DNA of 6,272 bases from an uncultured Eubacteriales bacterium (GTDB lineage Bacteria > Bacillota_A > Clostridia > Saccharofermentanales > Saccharofermentanaceae): positions 1 to 6,272 of the forward strand of contig OMQY01000017.1 of NCBI GenBank assembly GCA_900313405.1, read 5' to 3'. Below, piece by piece: positions 1,091-4,146 of this stretch (positions within the stretch are counted from its first letter, which is position 1; each line of letters opens with the position of its first letter). Below the pieces are notes generated by a model. That model made no database searches. It had not been told where the DNA came from and worked only from the letters and a program-made list of their open reading frames with translations. Position numbers and translations under genes: made by a program.

Positions 1091-1133
1091 CTGTATCATT
1101 GGCTTAATAACACGAAGGAGGTCAATGATATGG
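1091..1133 (+). promoter_or_regulatory. Leader hairpin: start codon in stem, ribosome binding site in loop
   Basis: CTGTATCATTGG (1091-1102) pairs with TCAATGATATGG (1122-1133). The core is a perfect 8-bp match (1094-1101 with 1123-1130), extended by one G-C pair and three G-U wobbles. The loop exposes the strong Shine-Dalgarno GAAGGAGG (1114-1121), while the AUG (1130-1132) is paired in the stem. This could restrain translation initiation until melted by temperature, a protein or the ribosome itself. The Shine-Dalgarno, eight bases before the ATG, also fixes the start and rules out the upstream GTG at 1067. Confidence 0.5.
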
Positions 1134-1423
1134 GTTCTACATTGGAAACGGCAATTGTAATATCAGCCGTCATAACGATCATCGTATTCCTGATCCTGGC
1201 TCCGCTTGATATGTGCGGGGAATGCTTCGACAGTGCAATTACAGGGAAAAAGGAGCTTGATCATCAGCTGTCTGACACGGATATTATCGGTGCATACAAG
1301 ATCAACGACACGACAGGTTCCACTACGTCACCGGAAACACTTTGTACCTTCCTTACGGGAATATCCGAGAACTACAGACTCATCTACGGAACAGTGGCGG
1401 GGGTGACAGATGAAGAGGGTTAA
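1130..1423 (+). CDS. Small TadE-like pseudopilin
   Basis: A 97-residue protein with almost no N-terminal leader (MGSTLETAIV), one hydrophobic helix at about 8-26 and a polar C-terminal part of about 70 residues containing Cys29, Cys32 and Cys72. The GS-TLETAI start closely matches that of the third pseudopilin in this operon, which marks it as a TadE-type minor pilin-like protein, processed or anchored in the membrane and facing outside. In canonical Tad prepilins a Glu lies five residues after the cleaved Gly; here it is four (Gly2, Glu6) and the basic leader is missing, so processing is uncertain. The start is set by GAAGGAGG at 1114-1121. The last 14 bases overlap the next gene, implying translational coupling. 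A role as a structural partner of the two following proteins is inferred from position and shared N-terminus. Confidence 0.65.
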   Translation: MGSTLETAIVISAVITIIVFLILAPLDMCGECFDSAITGKKELDHQLSDTDIIGAYKINDTTGSTTSPETLCTFLTGISENYRLIYGTVAGVTDEEG

Positions 1424-2774
1424 TAAAACATGCCAAAGGATCAACCGGCGTGGAGCGTCTACGTTATTTCTCGCTATCATATTGTCGGCTCTGGTGCTTA
1501 TAGAATGCATTTATCTGGGGATAGCAGGTGATATTGACAGAAGGCTCGCGTACAGACGTGCGATGAAGCTTGAGATAGATACCGTTCTTGCTGATTATGA
1601 CAGGGAACTGTTCAGGACTTACGGGATCTATGCTTTTGATATTAACGGCGTTGATAAGGGCGTCTTTGATAAGGTTATCCGTGCCCAGGGGATCGAACCT
1701 GACGGTAAAATATATATCGAAGGCGGCGCGTGTTTTGAGACTGATGATCTCAGGCGGGCGATCTCGGTGTTCTATTCGTACAGGGCTTCAGGGATTGCTT
1801 TCGACAGCATATACGAGATGTTATCCGGTATGTGTGATTCTGTCGAGTCGGATGAACTTCAGGAGAAGATAGAGAGCTTTACGTCAAGCAAGGCTGCCAA
1901 GATCTTCAGGAAGCTCCTTAAAGGCGGCAAGGTAGTCGCGGGTGTCCTTAAGCAGATCGGAAAACTGTTTGACATAGACTCCCTAACCGAGAAGATGGAT
2001 GACTACAAGCAATTGCTCAGTAATATCAATTCCATGATGGATGAATCTCCGGATTATACGGGAGGCTTCAATATCGGCAGTCTGTCCGGATTCTCAGGCA
2101 TTATTCAGGATATGTATGAGCTAAAAGGTGATGCTGCAGAGTTTACCGATGATCATCTGTTCAGAACGGCCTCTTCGCATTACGGTGCCTACAATTTTGA
2201 TTCCGCTCTTGAAGATGATACGACGATCAACGGCAGGGAATTCGGTGATCTGCACGACGGCAACTGCGCAGATGCCGAATACATCCTTACCGGTAAGCCG
2301 GGAGACAGCGCTGTCTCGAGAACCAAACTGATGATCTTTCCGGCAGTCTATCTTATCGATCTGGTGAATATAATGCGCGATCAGGAGAAGATGACTGTTA
2401 TCGACGGGATCTCGGAGGTCCTGGCAGCGGCTGTCTCCATTTTGTCGGCGGGCACAGTGTCTTTGCCGCCGGCAGTATATAAAGCAGTGATACTGGTGCT
2501 CTATGCAGGCGTATGTGCCTGGCAGGATATGGATTCGCTTATGAACGGTGAGAAGATCGATGTTTTTGATATCGGAGAGACATGTTCGTTCTCGCTCGGG
2601 TACAGGGATTTTATCTTCATCTATCTGCATTTTATCCCGACGCATAAAGTGCTTGACCGGATATCAGATATCCTCAACCGTGATTATGAGGGCTACTGTT
2701 CTTCGGTCAAGGTTGTGGCGACATACGGGAGAGGGACATATACGGAAACAGCAACATATGCCCTGTACGGGTGA
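1410..2774 (+). CDS. DUF5702-family Tad-locus pseudopilin-like protein
   Basis: A 454-residue protein with a basic leader ending NRRG (Gly15), then ASTLFLAIILSALVL as the start of a membrane helix at about 16-40. The segment at 56-80 (IDTVLADYDRELFRTYGIYAF) and the C-terminal half fit the DUF5702 pattern as I recall it: EYILTGK at about 290-296, two hydrophobic stretches at 332-370, WQDMDSLMNG at 371-380, and GYRDFIFIYLHF at about 397-408. Members occur in Tad/Flp pilus gene clusters of Clostridia and behave as large, mostly extracytoplasmic proteins anchored by the N-terminal helix; their biochemical role is unknown. Phe20 replaces the Glu expected five residues after the Gly, so the usual class III prepilin residue is missing. 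The ATG overlaps the upstream gene, with GGGGGTGA (1399-1406) as ribosome binding site. Family call is good; whether it is cleaved is unclear. Confidence 0.75.
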   Translation: MKRVNKTCQRINRRGASTLFLAIILSALVLIECIYLGIAGDIDRRLAYRRAMKLEIDTVLADYDRELFRTYGIYAFDINGVDKGVFDKVIRAQGIEPDGKIYIEGGACFETDDLRRAISVFYSYRASGIAFDSIYEMLSGMCDSVESDELQEKIESFTSSKAAKIFRKLLKGGKVVAGVLKQIGKLFDIDSLTEKMDDYKQLLSNINSMMDESPDYTGGFNIGSLSGFSGIIQDMYELKGDAAEFTDDHLFRTASSHYGAYNFDSALEDDTTINGREFGDLHDGNCADAEYILTGKPGDSAVSRTKLMIFPAVYLIDLVNIMRDQEKMTVIDGISEVLAAAVSILSAGTVSLPPAVYKAVILVLYAGVCAWQDMDSLMNGEKIDVFDIGETCSFSLGYRDFIFIYLHFIPTHKVLDRISDILNRDYEGYCSSVKVVATYGRGTYTETATYALYG

Positions 2775-2806
2775 TATCAGTATTCATGTCGAAAGGAGTT
2801 ATATCA
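2772..2806 (+). promoter_or_regulatory. Second start-codon hairpin around a ribosome binding site
   Basis: TGATAT (2772-2777) pairs with ATATCA (2801-2806), with a possible G-U pair at 2771/2807. The Shine-Dalgarno GAAAGGAG (2791-2798) lies in the 23-base loop and the AUG (2806-2808) enters the stem, the same layout as in front of the first pseudopilin gene. The 5' arm includes the stop codon of the DUF5702 gene (2772-2774), so ribosomes finishing that gene would melt it. The stem is short and AT-rich, so stability is doubtful. The Shine-Dalgarno clearly sets the start at 2806. Confidence 0.35.
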
Positions 2807-3816
2807 TGCATAAGCGCGGTTCGGTTACACTCGAGACGGCCATAGCTTTCTCGGGCGTCCTAATACTTATAGTGAGCATAGTCAACTCTATCAGTGTCTA
2901 CAGGACGGATATCCTGATGCAAAGATCCGTATCGGAGTCATGCGAGAAGTTCGCTGTATTTGCGCCTTTGTCGGTAACTGCTTCTGATGCCGTCAATACA
3001 ATGGTCAATGCATTGCCCGATTCCGAGATCTACGGTTCCCGTACATTAGACATGATAAGCGAGGCAGCAGGCCTGGTTACAGGCTTTGACGGTTCGACAG
3101 GGCATAATCTTATGGAACTTATCCTTGACGGTTCCTTTGGCCGTGTAATGAGAGACGATATAGCAGCAGGTTATTCTGCCCGTAACGGCGGATCTTCATT
3201 CGGAGGACCGGATTCGATCGGTGTAGAGTATGAACTGTCTGATGATCACAGTATCATTGAGGTGACAGTTACTTATAAAGTCCTGACAGTACTCGGGTAC
3301 AGGACAAGGACGATATATTCCGTCATCCCGATCTACGGAGACTGGTCGTTTGTATTCAACGGGGACAGTGAAGAGGATTCCGGGTACAGTATCTGGAGTG
3401 AGTCGAATTTTGACAGGGGAGATTATTTTCGAGAGAGATACGGAGCGAATCTGCCTGATACATTTCCGGTCATAGATGCATTTAATGACGGGAATGCGGA
3501 GTCGATACTGAGCATTGATCTGACGTCTCCGTGGTATTATTCCGACAGCAGTAATATCCGAGATAAGATAGACCGTCATATTGACCGGCTAGTCGAGTTT
3601 AATGGCTGTGACGTTAATATAGACGGTGAGAATTACACGATAACGGGGGATTCGATCCTTAGCAGGACACTTACGGTAATAATACCTGAGAATTCATCCG
3701 ATGATGCGGTAAGCTCTCTTATGGATATTTTGTCGGGAGCGCAGGCTTCCGGAGTGGATGTTCAGGTGGTAAGAGACGGGATATCGACGAGATATGATCC
3801 GGCGGAGGATGAGTGA
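2806..3816 (+). CDS. TadE-like pseudopilin with C-terminal CdiA-CT/endonuclease-toxin-like domain
   Basis: A 336-residue protein. It begins MHKRGSVTLETAIAFSG: a short basic leader, Gly5 and Glu10 in the correct +5 position of a class III (Tad) prepilin, then a membrane helix at about 11-30. Residues 31-180 form a TadE-like extracytoplasmic region ending in a beta-rich part (EYEL, IIEVTVTYKVL, TRTIYSVIPIYGDW). From about 201 a second domain follows: FDRGDYFRERYGANLP, FPVIDAF (220-226), AESILSIDLTSPWYY (231-245), a helix KIDRHIDRLVEFNG (254-267), SRTLTVIIPE (286-295) and ASGVDVQVVRDG. This order resembles the domain seen at the C-terminus of CdiA/Rhs-type toxins (typically RGxxxE, FPxID, ATSIKSLDL, YIDKL, SRxLxVAIP). 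The expected Glu is Arg209 and the expected Lys of SIKS is Leu235, so nuclease activity is doubtful. The start at 2806 is chosen by its Shine-Dalgarno and leader, not the longer open frame from 2548. Confidence 0.7.
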   Translation: MHKRGSVTLETAIAFSGVLILIVSIVNSISVYRTDILMQRSVSESCEKFAVFAPLSVTASDAVNTMVNALPDSEIYGSRTLDMISEAAGLVTGFDGSTGHNLMELILDGSFGRVMRDDIAAGYSARNGGSSFGGPDSIGVEYELSDDHSIIEVTVTYKVLTVLGYRTRTIYSVIPIYGDWSFVFNGDSEEDSGYSIWSESNFDRGDYFRERYGANLPDTFPVIDAFNDGNAESILSIDLTSPWYYSDSSNIRDKIDRHIDRLVEFNGCDVNIDGENYTITGDSILSRTLTVIIPENSSDDAVSSLMDILSGAQASGVDVQVVRDGISTRYDPAEDE

Positions 3817-3829
3817 CGGGTGTATCTTA

Positions 3830-3888
3830 TATATTATTAATAATTATTATTTGTTGTTTTTGACCGCAAGTTAGGTTATCATTATATG
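3830..3888 (+). promoter_or_regulatory. Promoter of the small membrane protein-yerC-like-secA operon
   Basis: TTGACC (3860-3865, five of six to consensus) and TATATG (3883-3888, four of six) are separated by an ideal 17 bases. A run of nearly pure A/T at about 3830-3859 lies directly upstream, like an UP element. Transcription would start near 3895, giving a leader of about 18 bases before the TTG at 3913. This divides the pseudopilin operon from the secA operon, although no hairpin terminator was found between 3817 and 3860. Confidence 0.6.
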
Positions 3889-3899
3889 AATTATGTTCT

Positions 3900-3904
3900 G
3901 GAGG
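3900..3904 (+). promoter_or_regulatory. Ribosome binding site deciding a TTG start
   Basis: GGAGG sits eight bases before the TTG at 3913 and in the right place to serve it. The in-frame ATG at 3886 has no such site and lies inside the predicted -10 box, so it should not be transcribed from this promoter. Confidence 0.65.
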
Positions 3905-3912
3905 CATGCGCA

Positions 3913-4146
3913 TTGAAGAACAACACTTCGGTCAGGAAGCCGTCTTTGGCTTATTCTAACACGAGCAGGAACAACAAGAATGACCTGTCTGTTGGCGATA
4001 CGTTGAGGAAGGCCAGGAGAAATCTTCTAATCAGGAGATGTCTCTTCGGGATGCTTGCCGTAATACTGGTGACCGCTATCGTAGCGGCCGTTGTATTGGG
4101 GTACGCGGACGGATTCATTGACAGTTTCTATGCCATGATGGGTTAA
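3913..4146 (+). CDS. Small single-pass membrane protein, unknown function
   Basis: With the TTG start the product is 77 residues. A polar N-terminal part rich in Asn, Ser and Lys (1-30) leads to a strongly basic stretch (LRKARRNLLIRR, 31-42), then one hydrophobic helix at about 43-63 and a short tail GYADGFIDSFYAMMG. By the positive-inside rule the N-terminus is cytoplasmic and the tail faces outward. No family was recognised. It is the first gene of an operon with the YerC-like regulator (8-base gap) and secA, which hints at a link to membrane or export functions, but this rests on position alone. An immunity protein for the toxin-like domain encoded upstream was considered; the separate promoter and lack of any recognisable similarity argue neither way. 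The start is inferred from the ribosome binding site and promoter. Confidence 0.6.
   Translation: MKNNTSVRKPSLAYSNTSRNNKNDLSVGDTLRKARRNLLIRRCLFGMLAVILVTAIVAAVVLGYADGFIDSFYAMMG

Follow-up and report, generated by a model that had tools for sequence, protein, structure and literature searches.

Several studies have described pilins of modular design and Tad pilus tips that carry variable domains (PMC8179133, PMC12075869, PMC12607857). In the toxins of contact-dependent inhibition (CDI), the active site of TA271 is an E-D-S-K tetrad made up of E177, D198, S209 and K211 (PMC9086364). In the literature searched, which omits most subscription papers, no report of a CDI or nuclease toxin domain on a pilin was found. 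Here we analysed a stretch of 6,272 nucleotides from an uncultured Eubacteriales bacterium (Saccharofermentanaceae; contig OMQY01000017.1), hereafter the window. It contains a gene for a 336-residue protein in which a prepilin module is joined to a C-terminal domain, the head, of a CDI toxin family (PF21111, CDI_toxin_EC869_like). It is this head on a pilin that appears to be new.

The best explanation, to which we give a probability of roughly two in three, is that the protein is a minor pilin whose nuclease-fold module, without catalytic activity, is probably presented at the tip of a Tad (type IVc) pilus. The prepilin module would be cut after Gly5 and would pack, together with a DUF5702 protein and the product of a 97-residue open reading frame (ORF), into the base of the filament or a tip complex. 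The head, a member of the EC869-type family of CDI toxin domains with the PD-(D/E)XK fold, would have lost the ability to cut nucleic acid and would be exported and displayed extracellularly, most likely at the pilus tip, where it may bind a ligand or serve as a structural module. The window protein thus most likely works as a display pilin.

The protein starts with MHKRGSVTLETAIAF, a class III prepilin signal with Gly5 and Glu10 followed by a hydrophobic stretch. The Gly, the Glu at +5 and the hydrophobic helix of type IV prepilins are all present, and the helix begins at residue 9 in the structural model. The ORF has a good ribosome-binding site before it and opens 31 bases past the stop of the preceding DUF5702 gene, as read by eye. 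A strict prepilin test was passed by 95 of 96 PF21111 pilins, the window pilin included, and by none of 464 control frames (minimum length 250 residues); with a loose test the figures were 96/96 and 2/464. A preliminary description of this DNA, made from its letters, had recognised the same prepilin start and membrane helix, and its observation as a whole is confirmed.

Residues 213-321 of the window pilin match PF21111 (E 4.8e-9; score 37 bits, cut-off 27), its sole Pfam match above cut-off, and the C-terminal 141 residues alone score 39.9 bits; NCBIfam and PADLOC gave nothing. PF21111 is matched by all 24 members of alignment A1, which holds the window pilin and 23 relatives; the search gave 183 hits, 97 of them with precomputed PF21111 among the 120 listed. 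The head has the fold of the solved toxin domains 4g6u and 4zqu. The structural alignment to 4zqu opens with residue 206 on 174, and without gaps 209 falls on 177. By profile and by fold, then, the head is kin to the nuclease domain of CdiA-CT and RHS toxins. This bears out the separate toxin-like C-terminal domain claimed in the preliminary description: the profile and structure searches proposed there led to the CDI toxin family, and neither to a lack of similarity nor to a known TadE C-terminal domain. Its interpretation as a whole is supported, although 'toxin-derived' goes beyond what the tree shows. The kinship stands, but the unrooted tree only parts RHS toxins from pilins and would be compatible with a passage from toxin to pilin or from pilin to toxin. 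Trees were built from 86 or 85 chosen rows, two of them without L116, a divergent pilin on a very long branch with the tetrad K-D-S-R, which one tree placed next to the RHS toxins.

The tetrad of the window head is R209, D224, S233 and L235, in place of the complete E-D-S-K of CDI/RHS toxins, and R-D-S-L would be unable to build the usual metal site. Ninety-nine distinct PF21111 proteins were aligned (that of the window, 44 taken from genome loci and 54 obtained by family searches), comprising 96 of prepilin type and 3 RHS toxins; two weak false matches (L106, L123) and a duplicate (L075, of L023) had been excluded, and re-fetched copies of earlier loci (L045-L067) were uncounted. E-D-S-K is found in all 3 RHS copies and in six further RHS rows; of 8 RHS hits, six were fetched. 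Glu and Lys stand at the positions of 209 and 235 in 9/9 RHS rows, equal to 8 distinct proteins (L108 and P0164 are one and the same), in agreement with the earlier claim that catalytic residues are lost at Arg209 and Leu235. At position 209 the 96 pilins have R (76), E (12) or another residue (8); at 224, D (65), A (16), S (13) or another (2); at 233, S (48), A (27), M (16) or another (5); and at 235, K (39), R (31) or another (26). Only L110 and L119 have the complete tetrad, which is invariant in 42/42 relatives of the group containing them. Loss across the pilins, a check that the preliminary description had called for, is therefore real in the window pilin but not uniform, one clade being intact.

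The gene neighbourhood is strongly conserved. In 44/44 loci the order on one strand is small ORF, DUF5702, PF21111 pilin, 86-residue membrane ORF, YerC-like and SecA. The pilin match and the match of the membrane ORF that follows it are separated by 60-117 bases in 42 of these loci, by 846 bases in L041 and by 1153 bases in L011. The last two gaps contain other ORFs (L041:6662-7292, L011:11173-12076), which we take to encode a HicA/HicB-like pair and a protein resembling nucleases. In a sample of the class, at least 40 of 52 PF21111 matches are preceded on the same strand by a DUF5702 match, at a distance of 0.48-1.03 kb. The remaining 12 include one RHS toxin, one false match and four genomes (G004, G006, G020, G024) with a DUF5702 relative found by tblastn; the other six (G036, G040, G045, G047, G049, G317) stood outside the one-by-one reading. 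A link with Tad pili is seen in a relative, L140, an intact-tetrad locus that is a Tad operon, with the order TadZ-like, T2SSE, T2SSF, T2SSF, Flp1_like, TadE, DUF5702, PF21111 pilin, Peptidase_A24 and DUF6382+FHA. One T2SSF (22.0 bits) and TadE (22.4) lie just below their cut-offs of 25.2 and 22.9, and the stop of the pilin (L140:4836-6056) lies 8 bases from the peptidase frame. L125 and L127 resemble L140 by gene map only.

The fusion of pilin and PF21111 is widespread in Clostridia and not peculiar to the window genome. Among cultivable, non-pathogenic relatives, the isolates AB4001 and YAD3003 have the gene. In the class sample, 51 of 391 genomes had a PF21111 match at E 0.001, with 49 above the cut-off. 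The 50 matches read (all 52 except G040 and G049) were 48 pilins, one RHS toxin and one false match. In the family of G006, 91/98 genomes had a match, one per genome, of which L068-L075 and those coinciding with other loci were read. These counts are lower bounds, because four of 20 DUF5702 loci thought to be free of PF21111 do carry it. A family named as a CDI toxin is thus a pilin head in nearly all the class-sample matches read, and automatic annotation may label such pilins toxins.

Those 20 loci, drawn from genomes without a PF21111 match in the family search, indicate that the head can differ. The gene following DUF5702 encodes a repeat-headed pilin in 12 loci and a headless pilin in 2; in 4 it encodes a PF21111 pilin that the family search had overlooked (recognised in L176 and L182 by Pfam and in L180 and L181 by motif alone), and in the last 2 none was seen. 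The repeat-headed pilins (L165-L175, L179) end in two H-x3-4-C ... C-x2-C repeats, a putative zinc head of H-C-C-C type. Those of them that were scanned gave no Pfam or NCBIfam match, and against the PDB nothing scored better than E 0.38. Pilin modules from 41 PF21111 and 12 repeat-headed pilins can be aligned over 159 columns (for the pair, probability 99.6 and E 7.4e-24), and with those of the two headless pilins over 179. By this alignment, homologous pilins bear different heads.

Although it belongs to the PF21111 family, the window protein lacks three defining features of a CDI/RHS toxin. Besides the incomplete tetrad, its head is carried by a 336-residue pilin and not by a large delivery protein such as CdiA or RHS, and the next gene is the 86-residue membrane ORF, with no RHS-type immunity homologue. 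The RHS toxins of L135 and L136, with an intact PF21111 domain, are each directly followed by an immunity-like ORF (152 and 172 residues; L135:1-458, L136:1073-1588; 61% identical to each other). In a tblastn search of 165 sequences, homologues of these two immunity-like proteins were confined to the RHS loci, and elsewhere no match was better than E 0.87. Looking for immunity genes, as the preliminary description had suggested, thus found them beside two RHS toxins and found no homologue of these beside pilins. An active toxin that the Tad pilus carries into neighbouring cells would agree with the fold of the head and with the Tad-like Kil pili that kill on contact (PMC12075869). However, the tetrad R-D-S-L, this confinement of the immunity-like proteins to RHS loci among the 165 sequences searched, the single gene per genome and the fixed gene order make it very improbable. 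Hardly credible is the idea that the likeness to CDI toxins arose from a coincidental profile hit or from convergence of folds. In its favour, the solved toxins are about 20-21% identical in sequence, and phmmer with the single window sequence matched no PDB chain, but profile and fold agree on the same family.

Another proposal is that the head is a nucleic-acid-binding module with which the Tad pilus takes hold of DNA outside the cell, for uptake or for adhesion, the broken site only holding the DNA. DNA capture has been ascribed to the T4c (Tad) pili of Micrococcus luteus (PMC12153270). The nuclease fold is in line with this proposal, as are the basic pocket given by R209 with K or R at 235 in 64/96 pilins and the alternative head with its putative zinc repeats. 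Zinc repeats are often linked with DNA-binding proteins. That head, however, is without a Pfam or close PDB match, position 235 is Leu in the window pilin, and the window head is strongly acidic, with a net charge of -14 over 126 residues and a median of -6 in the window family (45 rows, -16 to 12). Values are +1 in the other pilins (49 rows, -10 to 16), +1 and +6 in the two intact-tetrad pilins and +3 to +5 in RHS (3 rows). Because of its charge, plain DNA binding by the window member is disfavoured, whereas it is compatible with the charge of others, and we consider the proposal unlikely. A purely structural head, which caps or locks the minor-pilin complex and has no ligand, is likewise improbable. 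It would suit the trio of small ORF, DUF5702 gene and pilin remaining together and the residues W197, R204, G205, P221 and P294, invariant in 96/96 pilins, but the homologous pilin has different heads or none in other Clostridia, so that no particular head is required for assembly there.

Some observations weigh against a Tad display pilin. Tad linkage was read in a relative, in the L140 operon, rather than in the window strain itself. T2SSE proteins occur in 11/11 window-lineage genomes but also in 14/14 controls, which makes them weak evidence, and in the one window-lineage genome read the T2SSE/T2SSF/Flp1_like/FHA cluster lies apart from the trio. The 45 rows of the window family align with the 41 other PF21111 pilins over the first 52 columns only, and the window-family pilin module would therefore be more diverged, or another one. 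The 'TadE-like middle' of the preliminary description is weaker than stated: the window pilin has no Pfam TadE (PF07811) match up to E 10, a search limited by HMMER filters that discard most matches above about E 0.1, and at E 0.1 this model of 43 positions matches 4/24 members of A1 and 30/42 of A2. Finally, the immunity search covers the RHS-type gene, other kinds being outside its scope.

Taken together, the larger finding is the breadth of the fusion, the clade with an intact site and the variety of heads. We suggest, tentatively, that the pilin after DUF5702 in clostridial Tad systems could be an exchangeable display slot and that one clade (L110, L119, P0122-P0163) could display a working nuclease. 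If so, the intact-tetrad head would be a pilus-tip enzyme acting on extracellular or target-cell DNA, needing no immunity gene because it is never inside its own cytoplasm, and the window protein would stand at the other end of this series, without catalysis and put to a new use. The PF21111 set ties polymorphic toxins to Tad pilus tips through a common domain. Within the pilins alone, active sites range from complete to broken and heads vary on a homologous pilin, and a direct test of what clostridial Tad tips do becomes possible.

Coordinates in the window of the predicted pilin gene, its parts and the neighbouring genes of the conserved order
Feature	Position	Strand	Basis or remark
Small ORF, 97 aa, first of trio; N-terminal membrane helix, pilin-like by position	1130..1423	+	44/44 loci
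DUF5702 protein, 454 aa, second of trio	1410..2774	+	PF18960 E 3.1e-6, 26.8 bits, cut-off 26; 44/44 loci
Ribosome-binding site AGGAG	2794..2798	+	read in sequence
Modular minor pilin (predicted), 336 aa	2806..3816	+	ORF translation, family searches
Class III prepilin leader and hydrophobic helix, residues 1-31	2806..2898	+	alignment, strict prepilin test; cleavage expected after Gly5
Nuclease-fold head, residues 195-325	3388..3780	+	
Arg209, at catalytic Glu position of nuclease toxins	3430..3432	+	alignment with RHS toxins; 4zqu structural alignment
Asp224, catalytic Asp position retained	3475..3477	+	alignment
Ser233 and Leu235, S-x-K position; Ser kept, Lys lost	3502..3510	+	alignment
86-aa ORF, one membrane helix, between pilin and YerC-like gene	3886-4146		kept in 44/44 loci

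The DUF5702 protein, whose start read by eye is prepilin-like (G-x4-F), may have a TadG-like role. The start of the 97-residue ORF has G-x3-E, not the usual G-x4-E, as read by eye, and its Pfam search gave no match; the 86-residue ORF has no family above cut-off in Pfam or NCBIfam. Upstream of the trio, a metallo-beta-lactamase-fold protein is encoded at 355-1008. An MGS-like ORF at 1-327 starts at the first base and is probably cut by the window edge, since its relatives in L001 and L006 have 134 and 130 residues.

The head is alike in fold and sequence frame to the EC869/TA271-type CdiA-CT nuclease domain (PF21111; PDB 4g6u, 4zqu), from which it differs in having no catalytic Glu and Lys, in a carrier that is a pilin instead of CdiA or RHS, and in having no adjoining RHS-type immunity gene. 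The Tad tip complexes KilLMN and TadEFG share with this locus the adjacent minor-pilin genes, one of them large, and the variable C-terminal domains, which in those complexes are displayed at the pilus end and here would be too (PMC12075869). Here, however, the organism belongs to the Clostridia, the head is that of a toxin family, and the variable head is encoded by the gene after the large DUF5702 protein and not by TadG/KilN. CpaL of Caulobacter likewise combines a pilin module with a C-terminal module and is placed at the tip by prediction (PMC12607857), but it carries a vWA domain where the window pilin has a nuclease-fold domain. In the modular type IV pilins PilB and PilC of Streptococcus sanguinis, a functional domain is also grafted on a pilin (PMC8179133); there, the domains are vWA and lectin, and the pilus is not Tad.
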